Positions 8,698-20,131 of a stretch of 23,481 bases of DNA are shown here, one piece after another. Within the stretch, counting starts at the first letter, position 1, and every line of letters starts with the position of its first letter. This stretch comes from a virus: IMG/VR virus record IMGVR_UViG_3300047548_000223, positions 1 to 23,481 of that record; one strand, given 5' to 3'. A program made the translations under genes and the position numbers. The notes below the pieces were generated by a model, which ran no database searches, was not told where the DNA came from, and worked only from the letters and a program-made list of their open reading frames with translations.

Positions 8698-9174
8698 TTA
8701 TTTTTGAGTTTTTAGTAGTTCTAATTCTGCTTTAAGTTCTTTAATAGCTTCTACTAGTACAGGTACTAGTTTTGCATAGTCTAATGTTAGATATTCATTA
8801 CCTGAAACAGAGTACAGCTTACCATTTTCGTCATAATCAGAATCGAACGGCGCTAGTGTGACTATTTCTGAAAATTCACGTTTAACTTCTTGTGCACTAA
8901 GACCTATTTGTATGTTCTCTGTTTCATATCCGTAGCTAGCAGCTACATCATTAGCTTTATAGTAAAAACCTGTTAGTGAACTAATCTTATCTAAAGGATT
9001 TGCAATAGTAGCTATTTTATTTTTCAATCTCTCGTCTGAGTAGTAAGCTGTTATATTGTTAGTAGCTCTTATTTCTCCTGGAGTACCGGACGCAGTAGTA
9101 TTTACACCAAGACTAGAAACAGTTAAGTTTCTTGAAGTATCAACAATAGTTGTTCCTATTACCTTATATGTCAT
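8698..9174 (-). CDS. Short tail fibre protein with Peptidase_S74 intramolecular chaperone
   Basis: A 158-residue protein. A short stalk (residues 1-45) leads into ATNNITAYYSDERLKNKI, the hallmark start of the S74 auto-processing chaperone found in endosialidase and tailspike C-termini. The self-cleaving Ser-Lys pair is S46 and K51 (SDERLK). The domain continues through IGLSAQEVKREFSEIV and YLTLDYAKLVPVLVEAIKEL, ending in a short coiled coil. S74 domains help trimerise fibres and then cut themselves off. Here the part that would stay in the virion is only about 45 residues, unusually short for a fibre. It is one base downstream of the larger S74 fibre gene, with which it shares the C-terminal EAIKELK. 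Confidence 0.85.
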   Translation of the reverse strand: MTYKVIGTTIVDTSRNLTVSSLGVNTTASGTPGEIRATNNITAYYSDERLKNKIATIANPLDKISSLTGFYYKANDVAASYGYETENIQIGLSAQEVKREFSEIVTLAPFDSDYDENGKLYSVSGNEYLTLDYAKLVPVLVEAIKELKAELELLKTQK

Positions 9175-9175
9175 A

Positions 9176-10312
9176 TTATACGTCCTTTACTTTGCTTTCT
9201 AGATAAGCTACTTTATCTTTTAATTCTTTAATTGCTTCGATAAGTACTCCTACTATGTTCCCATAAGCGACTGTCTTATAGTTATCAGTTGCTACTACCT
9301 CAGGTAAAACTTCTTCTATCTCCTGGGCTATAACTCCTACAGATCTTTTACCTTCAATATCGAAGTATACACCTCTCATTGCTTGTACCTTATCTAACGC
9401 CTTATCAATAGTAATTACATTAGTTTTAACTCTTGCGTCAGACAGAGAGTTGAATTCTGTAGCGGACATTATACCAGAAGACGGATTGAAATATAACTTA
9501 GTACTAGATACAGTAGCAGCTGTGGTGTCTCCAGAAGTTAAACTAGTAAACATTAAGTATCGACTAGCGTTAGTACTAGTGTCATCTGTTATAGATGTAA
9601 CTCCGAATTTTGTCCATGCTGAAGCATAAAAAGCTTCAAAGGCGGTATTAGTACTATTGTAACGGAACATACCGTCAGAACCAGTACCAGGCCTTTGCGC
9701 CGTAGTACCGGCAGGTACTTGGATATAACCGGTACTGCTTATAATGGCATTACCTTGTACGTGTAATCTTTCAGCAGGTGATACAGTACCAATACCGACG
9801 TTAGAAGTAGCTAAAAATCTAATAGCGGTGACACTCTCTCCAGAGAACGTAACGTTATTTAGAGTGCCTAAGCTGTAGCCTTGTGGGGCTCCTACGTCTA
9901 CAAAAGAATTTATAGAATCAGTATTACTACTTCTAAAATAAAGTCTACCTGTATCAATGGTGCCTACTAATTCGCCTATTTCATAGGTAGTTTTATTAGC
10001 AGTTAATGTTGTAATATTCTGCTCTATTCTATTACCTATGCCTGCTCTGGTAAAGTTACCTCCAACAGGTGAGGTCTTTTTATTAACAGAGTCAGAAACA
10101 TATAAAGCACCAGTAGTAGCGCTTCTGTATAGCATACCGTCTGGTGGAGAAAGCGACGCACCGTTAACATTTAGGTTAACGCTAACAGGGGTTGAAGGTG
10201 AATAGAAATTAGTTAATAAAGATCTATAACTATCGTTTTGCTGTAGTCTTGCTGTGTTTAGTGACGTACCAGCAGTAGGTTCTGTGTACGTATTTGAGTT
10301 AGTTAATGACAT
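9176..10312 (-). CDS. Tail fibre protein with Peptidase_S74 chaperone domain
   Basis: A 378-residue fibre. Residues ~60-75 (DGMLYRSATTGALYVSD), ~167-190 (FLATSNVGIGTVSPAERLHV) and ~198-237 (VPAGTTAQRPGTGSDGMFRY...AWTKFG) are repeats typical of phage fibre shafts. The C-terminal chaperone starts at EFNSLSDARVKTNV with the catalytic pair S291 and K296. It runs through VGVIAQEIEEVLPEVV and ends in a coiled coil (IKELKDKVAYLESKVKDV). After trimerisation the chaperone is expected to cleave itself off at S291. The gene starts one base from the tip-protein stop, so it is probably a side or terminal fibre attached to the tip (inference). Confidence 0.88.
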   Translation of the reverse strand: MSLTNSNTYTEPTAGTSLNTARLQQNDSYRSLLTNFYSPSTPVSVNLNVNGASLSPPDGMLYRSATTGALYVSDSVNKKTSPVGGNFTRAGIGNRIEQNITTLTANKTTYEIGELVGTIDTGRLYFRSSNTDSINSFVDVGAPQGYSLGTLNNVTFSGESVTAIRFLATSNVGIGTVSPAERLHVQGNAIISSTGYIQVPAGTTAQRPGTGSDGMFRYNSTNTAFEAFYASAWTKFGVTSITDDTSTNASRYLMFTSLTSGDTTAATVSSTKLYFNPSSGIMSATEFNSLSDARVKTNVITIDKALDKVQAMRGVYFDIEGKRSVGVIAQEIEEVLPEVVATDNYKTVAYGNIVGVLIEAIKELKDKVAYLESKVKDV

Positions 10313-15976: not shown

Positions 15977-16744
15977 TTAAAAACTATTAAAACCTGATAA
16001 GAATTCAGATCTGGCTGCTTGTTGTTCAGCAGCAGAAGTAGTTCCGCTAGCCATAACTTCGCCATATATATTAGTAGTCTGAGTCTTACTATGTCCCATA
16101 CTAAGTACGTACCCGCTTATCATTTGACCTGCTACTCTAACCATACCATAGTTGAGAGCTACTGGAGTTCCTGAATTAGTACTGTTAGTCAGCGAGCCGA
16201 ACATATCGTTTTGTCTAGTATTTTCTTCACTAGGTTTTGTGGCAAATAGAGACGATAGTAAGGCTAATCCTATATTAATTACTAGATTTTGTAAAAACCC
16301 ACCCATACTACCAGCGATACCTGCTACACCTCCAGCTATTCCGCCTGCACCAGCAACGGTAGCTCCAACAGGGGCGGCTGCGCCAGCAGCCGCAGCTCCT
16401 GCTGCCATAGGTAAGAAAATGAACATGGCTATCGCTAAAACAGCCAGTATACCGCCACGTTTTCCACCACCGCCTACAATTGCAGGAACTATATGAATTA
16501 CATCATCTTTACGTGCAATTTTAATTTTTAGCTCATCTGGTGATATTATCTTTAGGTTCTTATCCAAGAACACAAAACTTTCTTCAATGTTTTGCGCTCT
16601 TTGCTTACGTAAGTAGTTGATAAAACGACGATGCATACCATTTAAATAAAATAAAATGTCGTTATATGTTTTTATATCAGCCACATACTCTGATTTATCA
16701 AAAAACTTACTAAAAGAGGAATGTGGTCTAATCTTAACTAACAA
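15977..16744 (-). CDS. I: Tail assembly protein, lambda gpI-like
   Basis: A 255-residue protein with a ubiquitin-like beta-grasp region (1-~90, ending DDVIHIVPAIVGG), a GGGGKRGG hinge, and a long Gly/Ala-rich hydrophobic stretch (99-168) that looks membrane-seeking. The C-terminal NSGTPVALNYGMVRVAGQMIS motif (about 187-206) is characteristic of gpI/TipI proteins. The start codon is TTG at 16744, supported by GAGGAG about 8 bases upstream; the gene overlaps the JAB gene by 11 bases. In lambda, gpI is needed for tip assembly with gpK and gpJ, and the order here is the same. Confidence 0.88.
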   Translation of the reverse strand: MLVKIRPHSSFSKFFDKSEYVADIKTYNDILFYLNGMHRRFINYLRKQRAQNIEESFVFLDKNLKIISPDELKIKIARKDDVIHIVPAIVGGGGKRGGILAVLAIAMFIFLPMAAGAAAAGAAAPVGATVAGAGGIAGGVAGIAGSMGGFLQNLVINIGLALLSSLFATKPSEENTRQNDMFGSLTNSTNSGTPVALNYGMVRVAGQMISGYVLSMGHSKTQTTNIYGEVMASGTTSAAEQQAARSEFLSGFNSF

Positions 16745-17102
16745 AATGTTTCTCCTCTAATTTTTCAAACTTTAAAGCATCTACATTTACATCATACCAG
16801 TATATATAAAATTTATTATTAAAGCCTACTAAGAACTTATACTGATTAAAAGCAGCACTAGTTTTATCTTCGGAACTAGGTAATGGGTTATCAGACCCAG
16901 GATGAGAATGAAATATACCCCAGATATTACCATCGTGTTTAACTAAGTCTGCAGGGTCTAAGAAAAATGTAAATTTAGGATTATCGCTTATATTTTTACA
17001 AGGTATGTATGTATAATTTTTAGTTATAATACCTACACACTCTTTAGGATAATCTCGTAAAGCATGATTATTCATGTCTTCTAATAGTTTTAAGTAGTCC
17101 AT
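16734..17102 (-). CDS. JAB/MPN (JAMM) metalloprotease, N-terminal half of lambda gpK equivalent
   Basis: A 122-residue Mov34/MPN-fold protein. The zinc-binding JAMM pattern is visible: E21 in PKECVG, then H65-S-H67-P (GIFHSHPGS) and S76/S77-E-D79 (PLPSSED). The spacing between the histidines and the Ser/Asp is one residue longer than the usual consensus, but all ligand types are present. In lambda this domain is the N-terminal half of gpK and is fused to an NlpC/P60 domain; here it is a separate gene. It overlaps the upstream NlpC-like gene by 13 bases and the gpI-like gene by 11, which suggests translational coupling and an assembled tip-complex function. Its proteolytic target is unknown. 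Confidence 0.88.
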   Translation of the reverse strand: MDYLKLLEDMNNHALRDYPKECVGIITKNYTYIPCKNISDNPKFTFFLDPADLVKHDGNIWGIFHSHPGSDNPLPSSEDKTSAAFNQYKFLVGFNNKFYIYWYDVNVDALKFEKLEEKHFVS

Positions 17103-17512
17103 CTGTAAATGCCTGTCGTATATTGTTTATAATAAGTTCCGTAAGGGCTTACCCAGCTAGACCTACCTATCATAGTATGTATTATTTTGTTACTTCCTAA
17201 AAACATAGCACAATGATTAGTAACATTTGTAGAGCCTATGCTCATGAAAATAAAATCATGTATAGCTGGGTTAGTTACGGATAGGCATCTATTATCTTGT
17301 TCTACAGCTATTCTAAAAGAATCTGTATTAGTTTTATTGTACCAATCGTTATCTACTATGTTACAATGCTCAAAGGATAAGTGTGGTATTTCGATATCAA
17401 GCTCCTGCTTATAAATATAGCGACATAGATTAAAACAATCCATGCCGCTAACAATATCATTGCCGAGATGTTTATAAGGTATATTAACGTATTTATCGTA
17501 CCAATTTGTCAT
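17090..17512 (-). CDS. NlpC/P60-type cell-wall peptidase, tail-tip copy 2
   Basis: A 140-residue papain-like protein. The catalytic Cys is C26 in SGMDCFNLCRY, the His is H100 in TNHCAMFLG, and H112 (IIHTM) is the likely third polar residue. This layout matches the C-terminal half of lambda gpK and other phage tip NlpC/P60 domains that cleave peptidoglycan crosslinks during DNA entry. It overlaps the preceding NlpC-like gene by 20 bases and the JAB gene by 13. Of the two adjacent copies, this one has the fuller set of recognisable motifs and lies directly before the JAB gene. ATG 17512. Confidence 0.85.
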   Translation of the reverse strand: MTNWYDKYVNIPYKHLGNDIVSGMDCFNLCRYIYKQELDIEIPHLSFEHCNIVDNDWYNKTNTDSFRIAVEQDNRCLSVTNPAIHDFIFMSIGSTNVTNHCAMFLGSNKIIHTMIGRSSWVSPYGTYYKQYTTGIYRWTT

Positions 17513-17885
17513 GCCGATATATCGCGTGTATATGTTCTATCCAATAATCAGATAGTTGTTCTACTTGCGAAGTTTTCCCCTCTTCAACGTGTAGCATACG
17601 GTTTGGTTTTATATACAAACCAAAATGAATTAATAAGTTAGACTTTTTTGACTTAAAACTAATTAAATCATAGTTCTGAGCGTCTGTCAATGAAACTTTT
17701 GTTCCATAATTAGATGCCCAACCGTCTAAAAAATCTGTGGTATATTGTTTCATCCATAGCCTAGATTGCGGGTATGTAGGTAGATTAAAGCTGCAACCTA
17801 ACTCATTTTGATAAAACTGTTGAACTAGGGTTATACAATCATAAGTCCCATAGCAGTGCTTAATCCCTAAATACTTATATATCAT
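17493..17885 (-). CDS. NlpC/P60-like peptidase, tail-tip copy 1
   Basis: A 130-residue protein with a similar papain-like layout: C17 in GTYDCITLVQQFY, H87 in LLIHFGLYI and H99 in MLHVEEG. The Cys-His order and the 'yDC..L...f' and 'iHfGlYi' phrases fit the NlpC/P60 superfamily, but overall similarity to the next gene's product is low. The ATG at 17885 overlaps the stop of the gpL-like gene (ATGA). Two adjacent NlpC-like genes are not part of the standard lambda layout. This copy may be a second wall hydrolase or a structural paralogue; the active residues look intact. Confidence 0.75.
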   Translation of the reverse strand: MIYKYLGIKHCYGTYDCITLVQQFYQNELGCSFNLPTYPQSRLWMKQYTTDFLDGWASNYGTKVSLTDAQNYDLISFKSKKSNLLIHFGLYIKPNRMLHVEEGKTSQVEQLSDYWIEHIHAIYRHDKLVR

Positions 17886-20131
17886 GCTCGTGGTATTGAT
17901 CTACCTACACCTGGAAAACCTCCAAAGTGTATAGAGTTATTTCTAACAGTACACGCTGCCAAAGATTTGGCACATACGTCTGTGCTAGTTTTGGATACTA
18001 AAGCTGCAGGAGAGTATGTTAATAGTTCTGCAATTGTTGGTTGAGAACCACTAATAATATCTACTCTAGGAGCATAGAATTGTTGATTTGTAGTTGGGTC
18101 TGTAGAGTAGTATAAGTAACTTCTATGCTGACTCTGTGTGTTAAGTGCTTGCCATACAAAATCAGCTATAGTTGTTAGTTTTGTACCATTAGATCTATAA
18201 ATACCAGTATCTACGTGTACTGCTCCAGTGCCGCTGCCTGTAGGCCATACGTGCCCAACAAGTAACAACCACTCGTATGCGGAATATGGCCATCCTGAAG
18301 CATAAAAATACGGATTGGTGTTAGTAACACCATTAGATCTATTAAGAACTCCTATATTAGTACCGCCAGCATTATAGCCACTTAACCCTAAATAAGTAGA
18401 ACCATTTCCAATATTTTTTCTACGAATCCATGTTGAAAATCTATACATGTTAGCACTGTTAATACCAAAAAGATCAGTATTCCAGCCACCGTCGGCATCT
18501 GAAGCTACGTCTTGGTTAGTAACATCCCAAACAGGTTGTAAATCTCCGTAAGGAGTAGAATCCATAGTTATAGAGTTTCCGTCACCGTTTAAAAAGTAAC
18601 CAGTAATTCCACTAGTTCTACCTAATACCCAACTATCCATATTTATTATAGAAGGAGCTCTACTAGTAGCGACTCTATTATCTAATCCTATAGGACTGCT
18701 ATTAGATACTAAATTAGTACCAGGAATTGATAAACCTCCAGGTCCTGGATATTGACACTCTGGTCCTTTATATACCCACTGACATGTATTTTTATAATAC
18801 TTTCTTCTTGGAGTAACAGCTTTGAAATACTGCAACCAAGATACTAAGGCAAAAGTTGCTTGGTGTTCTGTTAGACTTTCTAATTGGTCTATTTTAAACT
18901 TATCTTCTATGTAACTTTCAGTATCTGCTTCTTCGTTGATAATGTACAGTGGAGTTCCTACAGTGCTACCGATACCTAATTCATTACTCAAATATATCTC
19001 ATGAGTAACATCTATAAACTGTATGGTAGCTGTTACGTTACTAGAATAAGAACGCACAGTATCACCAACTCTATATGGCGAAGAGTTAACAACAGTAACT
19101 ACATTACTATTAAGTAGTGTTATGGTGCTGTACTCAGGCCAGTAGTCTAAGAAATTAGCAAAAGTAGTTTTGATTTCTACTACACCACCTAATAAGTCTC
19201 TAGAATCTTCTTTATCTGCAGACCAAGTTCCACCTATAGATTTAGCTTGAGCATAAGTAAAAGTAGCGTTTGCTCGTCCATACTGATTTACTATATCTAC
19301 ATCGTAGAATAATCCTTGAGCTCTAGCTAATGACAGGGCTTGGTATTCATTACTTCCTAAAGGACCTAAGTCAATAGGGCTGGCGTTAACTGTTCTTGGG
19401 TCTATACCAGTTACCACCTCACCATTTACTACAGCAAAAACAGCATTAGATATATTATTTCCTGCTAAATATGGGTCTTCTACTAATCTAGAAATTATAT
19501 TATCTACGTTAAACACAGTTAACGATAACTCATTAATCTTACCATCTGATGTTTGCTCTATACCACTTATAGAAACTGGAAATGGAGAATAAGACGTTCC
19601 AGCATAAGTAACATTATAACTTATATCGTCACTTAAGTCGCCTACTACTTCTGCAAAACGTATAGGAAAGTCACTAGGCCAGGCACGACCTTCACCATTT
19701 TCAGTAGGATTGCCGTGTTCGTTAGAAGGATACCATTCTCCTGGGTAATATATTGAATATAGTCTAACTATAGGATTTTGAGTAAATGCATTTTTCTCAG
19801 CAATAAACGTGCTAGGTCTTATATTAAATATAGTATCTGTAGCAGTGATTACATTACCACTCATCACGTTAGCTTGAAAAGGTAACGCGCTAGCATTATT
19901 TATAGCACCGTTGGCGGTTCCTGTAACAGTTATATACTTAGAATGTATGCTTTCTACAGCACTAAACTCATTATATATATTAGCAAGCTTAACCTTTAAT
20001 AAGTTATTAGCAGTATCAATGCCAGCAATTAAACCAACGGCTTGCGTAGTATTGCCTACTACTACATTACCTGTTTGAAAAGCTGTAGCATTTGATACTG
20101 TTAATATTACGTCGTATGTTCTAGAAGTCAC
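17882..20131 (-). CDS. L: Minor tail protein, lambda gpL-like, with a large inserted beta-domain
   Basis: A 749-residue protein (lambda gpL is about 230). The gpL core is recognisable at ~120-230 (IVRLYSIYYPGEWY; SYNVTYAGTSYSPFPVSISG; LSLTVFNVDNIISRLV). Four cysteines follow: C450 and C459 (NTCQWVYKGPECQY), C720 and C727 (DVCAKSLAACTVRN), then HFGGFPG, the C-terminal pattern of gpL, which binds an iron-sulfur cluster in lambda. Between C459 and C720 lies an extra ~250-residue segment (about 467-712) with aromatic beta motifs (YRFSTWIRRKN, TNPYFYASGW, RSYLYYSTD, YAPRVDI) that resembles carbohydrate-binding beta-sandwiches. Residues 1-~105 and ~340-400 are further beta modules absent from lambda. 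Start is GTG 20131 with CGGAGC seven bases upstream. Role: links the tail tube end to the tip. Confidence 0.85.
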   Translation of the reverse strand: MTSRTYDVILTVSNATAFQTGNVVVGNTTQAVGLIAGIDTANNLLKVKLANIYNEFSAVESIHSKYITVTGTANGAINNASALPFQANVMSGNVITATDTIFNIRPSTFIAEKNAFTQNPIVRLYSIYYPGEWYPSNEHGNPTENGEGRAWPSDFPIRFAEVVGDLSDDISYNVTYAGTSYSPFPVSISGIEQTSDGKINELSLTVFNVDNIISRLVEDPYLAGNNISNAVFAVVNGEVVTGIDPRTVNASPIDLGPLGSNEYQALSLARAQGLFYDVDIVNQYGRANATFTYAQAKSIGGTWSADKEDSRDLLGGVVEIKTTFANFLDYWPEYSTITLLNSNVVTVVNSSPYRVGDTVRSYSSNVTATIQFIDVTHEIYLSNELGIGSTVGTPLYIINEEADTESYIEDKFKIDQLESLTEHQATFALVSWLQYFKAVTPRRKYYKNTCQWVYKGPECQYPGPGGLSIPGTNLVSNSSPIGLDNRVATSRAPSIINMDSWVLGRTSGITGYFLNGDGNSITMDSTPYGDLQPVWDVTNQDVASDADGGWNTDLFGINSANMYRFSTWIRRKNIGNGSTYLGLSGYNAGGTNIGVLNRSNGVTNTNPYFYASGWPYSAYEWLLLVGHVWPTGSGTGAVHVDTGIYRSNGTKLTTIADFVWQALNTQSQHRSYLYYSTDPTTNQQFYAPRVDIISGSQPTIAELLTYSPAALVSKTSTDVCAKSLAACTVRNNSIHFGGFPGVGRSIPRA

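Follow-up and report, generated by a model that had tools for sequence, protein, structure and literature searches.

In phage lambda, Cys173, Cys182, Cys205 and Cys212 of gpL surround the iron-sulfur density of the solved structure, and the role of this cluster has been described as still to be characterised (PMC10721106). Lambda gpL holds no inserted domain between Cys182 and Cys205, which are spaced by 22 residues. In the gpL-like protein encoded by the viral DNA analysed here (23,481 nucleotides, hereafter referred to as the window), the spacing between the equivalent cysteines C459 and C720 is 260 residues. What has been placed between the two cysteine pairs, where did it come from and how might it serve the phage?

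A lambda-type gpL with a split iron-sulfur region

The gene, which starts with a GTG codon, matches the Pfam family PF05100 (Phage_tail_L; E 3e-26, 92.4 bits against a curated cut-off of 25), the PHROG family phrog_18 (“minor tail protein”, 5e-29) and, by phmmer, the solved lambda gpL chain 8iyk_L (1.1e-14). Judged by these sequence matches, the protein is a homologue of lambda gpL. Its surroundings, as annotated with Pfam and PHROG, follow the lambda gene order L - K (NlpC/P60, JAB) - I - J: on the 3' side of gpL lie two NlpC/P60 genes, a gpK-like JAB gene, a gpI-like gene and a gpJ-like gene of 1884 aa. Within the interval separating gpL and gpI (16734–17885), the adjacent NlpC/P60 genes encode 130 and 140 aa and the gpK-like JAB gene, which is separate, encodes 122 aa.

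The four conserved cysteines occur in CxWxYxGxxC and DxCxKxxxxC contexts, as is typical of the PF05100 family. The phmmer alignment to 8iyk_L falls into three pieces (query residues 173–226, 399–465 and 714–743, corresponding to chain residues 48–102, 122–188 and 199–228), from which it follows that about 10 lambda residues are replaced by about 250 in the window protein. An initial reading of this DNA, made from the sequence only, had described two cysteine pairs (C450/C459 and C720/C727) some 260 residues apart; counting gives exactly 260 and the pairs align with the lambda ligands. The presence of an insert is likewise confirmed, while the limits proposed for it (467–712) proved slightly wide, since residues 467–487 belong to the loop shared with insert-less relatives (GGLAIPGTSLTSNANPIAANN..A) and the domain proper spans about 493–709. 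In the alignment, the first 25–30 residues of the relatives' short loop are still present in the window protein, which places the new domain near the third cysteine. Chance resemblance is ruled out by the domain profile (E 2e-84 on the window ORF, the window sequence being itself part of the profile), by independent tblastn matches in other phages down to 5e-49 and by the confident AlphaFold2 model described below. All coordinates are collected in Table 1.

Compared with lambda gpL, the protein has two more long additions (18935–20131; gpL residues 1–172 and 226–399), located before residue 173 and between residues 226 and 399, which are found throughout the window's clade. An internal likeness between residues 9–54 and 344–386 (P 0.0034, probability 9.6 %) is a weak hint of a repeat.

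Table 1. Features of the gpL gene in the window and pilin-type carriers of the same module (the latter in coordinates of their own loci)
Feature	Position	Strand	Basis
gpL-like tail hub protein, 749 aa	17882..20131	minus	PF05100, phrog_18 and 8iyk_L matches
C450, equivalent of lambda Cys173	18782..18784	minus	phmmer alignment to 8iyk_L; ligand list of PMC10721106
C459, equivalent of lambda Cys182	18755..18757	minus	phmmer alignment; PMC10721106
C720, equivalent of lambda Cys205	17972..17974	minus	phmmer alignment; PMC10721106
C727, equivalent of lambda Cys212	17951..17953	minus	phmmer alignment; PMC10721106
Loop residues 460–492, between C459 and the insert, mostly common to insert-less relatives	18656..18754	minus	alignment with relatives' loops
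Inserted CBM4/22-like beta-sandwich domain (residues 493–709)	18005..18655	minus	profile envelope, AF2, PDB matches
Prepilin-like or pilin-like carrier L136	5617–6630		C-terminal module
Prepilin-like or pilin-like carrier L137	5611–6630		C-terminal module
Prepilin-like or pilin-like carrier L138			C-terminal module
Prepilin-like or pilin-like carrier L142	2796–3923		C-terminal module

Distribution and divergence of the insert among gpL relatives

Scanning IMG/VR with the full window gpL yielded 80 loci, in 79 of which the loop could be read. A short loop of about 35–39 residues, of the type GGLAIPGTSLTSNANPIAANNEIASDAFGDVC, is found in 77 of them, including proteins with 58–65 % identity, and a loop of insert length in only two (L002, 266 residues; L003, 260 residues). 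In both these contigs, which are sister to the window, the insert is in frame and at the same site, with 68–70 % identity. The three insert-bearing proteins form one group in the tree of the gpL core as well as in that of the domain (100/100 and 99/98), so that a single acquisition suffices to explain their distribution. The comparison of homologues thereby refutes the idea that the segment is part of a core fold common to all close relatives.

L002 and L003 stem from a single metagenome. Between them, 35 % of the residues differ in the insert (dN 0.25) and 8 % in the gpL core (dN 0.05), with similar dS values of 1.2–1.3. The dN of the insert is thus about five times that of the core, a rough figure since dS is near saturation; the window and L002 show no such contrast in rate. 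Faster divergence is as expected for a part in contact with the host, and a swap of the insert by recombination might produce the same sequence pattern.

Fold of the inserted domain

AlphaFold2, run on residues 487–710 with 35 relatives, predicts an all-beta structure with one short helix (mean pLDDT 94.1, pTM 0.92). Residues 395–749 were modelled separately, as full-length mixed alignments smeared the domain rows; the inserted domain again reaches a pLDDT of about 80–99, compared with 32–60 for the flanks and 32–56 for the iron-sulfur flanks in particular. This second model fits a separate domain, the way in which the cluster would close the graft lying outside its confident part.

When solved structures were compared by Foldseek and VIA-align, the top matches had Z scores of 11–12.6 at identities of about 4–14 %. 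They are led by CBM4-2 of the Rhodothermus marinus xylanase (2y6j, 2y64; Z 12.6, rmsd 2.6 over 151 residues) and include CBM16, CBM61 and CBM22 (Z 11.1) together with the jelly rolls of the K2-2 Klebsiella phage tailspike (Z 12.5) and CBA120 TSP4 (Z 11.8). The predicted model therefore has the jelly-roll beta-sandwich of CBM4/CBM22-type modules, and the separate carbohydrate-binding-like domain that the sequence-only reading had proposed finds support at the level of the fold. K2-2 TSP (8iqe), CBA120 TSP4 (5w6h) and Kp7 gp52 (7xyc) combine the same fold with a function in host contact, although their jelly rolls lie within larger spike proteins and are only 7–10 % identical to the window domain. 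The matches with this fold also include proteins that do not bind sugar, namely MAM domains, an ephrin receptor domain and HpiC-type bacterial cyclases; since MAM domains and cyclases follow so closely, the fold alone is no proof of sugar binding.

At the sequence level, the window domain gives no significant family in Pfam or PHROG. PF02018 (CBM_4_9) does not match it, the best value being an E of 0.008 and confined to 2 of the 36 relatives, and hmmsearch with the domain profile against PDB sequences returns matches at chance level. The domain is about 12 % identical to solved CBMs, among them CBM4-2, whose fold it is predicted to share, and in view of the missing CBM profile match it is CBM-like by fold rather than a member of a CBM family. 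We infer that it may bind glycans, influence host range and be anchored by the cluster.

The same module on other phage and cellular proteins

By alignment search, the module was found at 47 viral loci. Cultured phages that carry it in a tail or fibre protein are the 156-kb phage C48C1, the Vibrio podovirus SBP1, the Vibrio phages F86, D485 and 6E35.1a (gene within the long-tail-fibre cluster) and, as a weak match, the Acinetobacter phage ME3. In one gpJ-like central fibre (L119), it follows the fibronectin region. Eight of 36 module members match phrog_5499, “host range and adsorption protein” (best 1.5e-4). SBP1 gp62 was considered as a further gpL-like protein on account of the cysteines after its domain, and was rejected: with 41 cysteines, it is instead a cysteine-rich protein that resembles a fibre. 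The C48C1 protein (L083), which is 3.3 thousand residues long, has a full module copy at 1847–2063 and a partial end copy at 2100–2138, whose matched stretch is identical to that of the full copy.

In cellular genomes the module is rare, with at least seven loci in a pattern-based scan of about 85,000 species, a figure that is a lower bound; its frequency is one in 380 genomes in the phylum of L136 and one in 87 in that of L142. Type IV prepilin-like proteins of three Saccharibacteria genomes have it as their C-terminal part, and PF07963 scores above its cut-off in both of those tested (L136 and L137). It is also the C-terminal part of a pilin-like protein of a Diapherotrites archaeon, and in Bacteroidetes it lies inside very large secreted-looking proteins. 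Pilins of modular build that act as adhesins through grafted domains have been described (PMC8179133). One adhesion module would thus link phage tails with pilin-like proteins of very small bacteria.

Other inserts in the gpL loop

Is the loop open to other modules? The pattern CxWxYxGxxCxYxG, which is independent of overall similarity to the window, was sought across viral contigs, and the matches listed are a sample. They comprise 80 ORFs, three of which end before the loop. The loop of the remaining 77 measures 21–39 residues in 58 proteins, a few residues in four and 94–327 residues in 15. The 15 long inserts among the matches listed belong to at least four unrelated groups, and the module of the window is in none of them. 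Five inserts of 308–327 residues (L159, L216, L208, L210 and L181) resemble one another and contain B-type lectin repeats (QxDGNxVxY). Searched against the PDB, the L159 insert matches pyocin L1 (9e-16) and monocot mannose lectins of the garlic and snowdrop type (about 1e-9 to 5e-14), and three inserts of this group hit B_lectin in Pfam at 3.4e-7 to 1.4e-4, under the curated cut-off. Seven inserts of about 94–145 residues (L201, L175, L158, L209, L176, L186 and L214) are CBM5/12-like, a weak label resting on a Pfam value of 0.04 and on PDB matches to chitin deacetylase and chitinase A1 domains at 0.013–0.26. Further unrelated types are represented by L160 and L167 on the one hand and L202 on the other (136 aa and 186 aa).

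There is precedent for a domain that separates the cysteine pairs of such a hub: in the gpL-type hubs of RcGTA (PMC7296036) and R4C (PMC10276861), an oligosaccharide-binding domain lies between two iron-binding-domain segments. As in the window, a domain named for sugar binding splits an iron-binding domain with four cysteines. However, that domain counts about 82 residues and has been likened to the insertion domain of LKA1 gp49, while the window carries about 217 residues of a CBM4/22-type fold; no match between the two is among the sequence hits listed, and the RcGTA hub is absent among the fold matches listed, although the domains may still be related. New here is a different and larger module that is rare among relatives and whose origin can be traced.

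With the 15 inserts among the 77 proteins listed and the hubs of RcGTA and R4C, the gpL loop is a recurrent insertion site in which sugar-binding families are prominent, and the lectin and CBM-like modules in this loop lend further weight to a carbohydrate-binding jelly-roll reading of the window's insert. More tentatively, at chances somewhat below even, the loop may be a general exchange socket for repeated, unrelated glycan-binding grafts (the jelly roll, B-type lectins, CBM5/12-like modules, the RcGTA/R4C domain and at least two further types), with the iron-sulfur cluster as the rigid staple by which the fold tolerates them. The searched literature, mostly non-subscription, yielded no description of B-type lectins in the gpL loop or of the loop as a general insertion site. 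The wider point is that the gpL loop accepts several unrelated modules. Were it indeed such a socket, the cluster would gain a testable purpose; and if it is a standard mount for glycan modules, gpL would join fibres and Dit among the places where phages tune first contact, and the length of its loop would be a simple sequence marker for such modules.

A probable accessory adhesin and its alternatives

We consider it likely that the domain is an accessory glycan adhesin at the exterior of the tail tip, a CBM4/22-type module inserted into the gpL of a small clade's ancestor. According to this proposal, a mobile adhesion module with a jelly-roll fold would have entered the loop between the first two and the last two cysteines, most simply once, in an ancestor of the small clade that includes the window phage. 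By homology with lambda, where the iron-sulfur domain of gpL lies at the exterior of the tail tip and each tip has three gpL copies, the module would project outwards in the form of three arms next to the foot of the central fibre gpJ, apart from both the gpJ tip and the side fibres (S74-bearing genes, 8698–10312). Reversible, weak and multivalent binding of a surface glycan (capsule, EPS or LPS) could then contribute to adsorption by keeping the tail tip close to the cell before gpJ engages its receptor. Among tested systems, the closest parallel is the evolved Dit of lactococcal skunaviruses, where CBM insertions restore adsorption to EPS-bearing lactococci (PMC10688798), and the gpL module may work in a similar mode. 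In both cases a CBM-type insertion sits in a ring protein of the tail end and is absent from close relatives, although the carrier, the insertion site and the hosts differ.

Alternatively, the jelly roll could serve the virion itself, as a structural or assembly decoration that provides a docking site for side fibres or stabilises the gpL/gpJ ring without binding sugar. Jelly rolls and Ig-like folds are common on tails and the fold list contains protein-binding members, but we regard such a decoration as rather unlikely: relatives with 58–65 % identity manage without it, the module is shared by unrelated fibre, prepilin-like and large secreted proteins that have no common assembly partner, a lectin is among the other modules of the same loop, and the insert diverges faster than the core between L002 and L003. 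Binding might also be directed at a glycan or protein that is not the host's (mucus, marine particles, a pilus or surface protein) and serve residence in a niche instead of host contact. The occurrence of the module on prepilin-like and very large secreted proteins and the capacity of this fold to bind proteins as well speak in favour of this quite improbable alternative, while a position at the tail tip, and not on the head or along the tube, suggests the cell surface as the target. That the segment belongs to the gpL core fold, or arose as an artefact of assembly or gene calling, is already refuted and retains virtually no probability, given that it recurs in frame at this site in two further contigs (68–70 % identity), that 77 of 79 relatives are without it and that it is predicted to fold alone (pLDDT 94).

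As to the side-fibre region of the window, the adjacent ORFs at 8698–9174 and 9176–10312 each match tail fibre families at their S74-type ends. Of the two, the shorter ORF (8698–9174) matches the terminal part only and resembles a spare or duplicated fibre tip.
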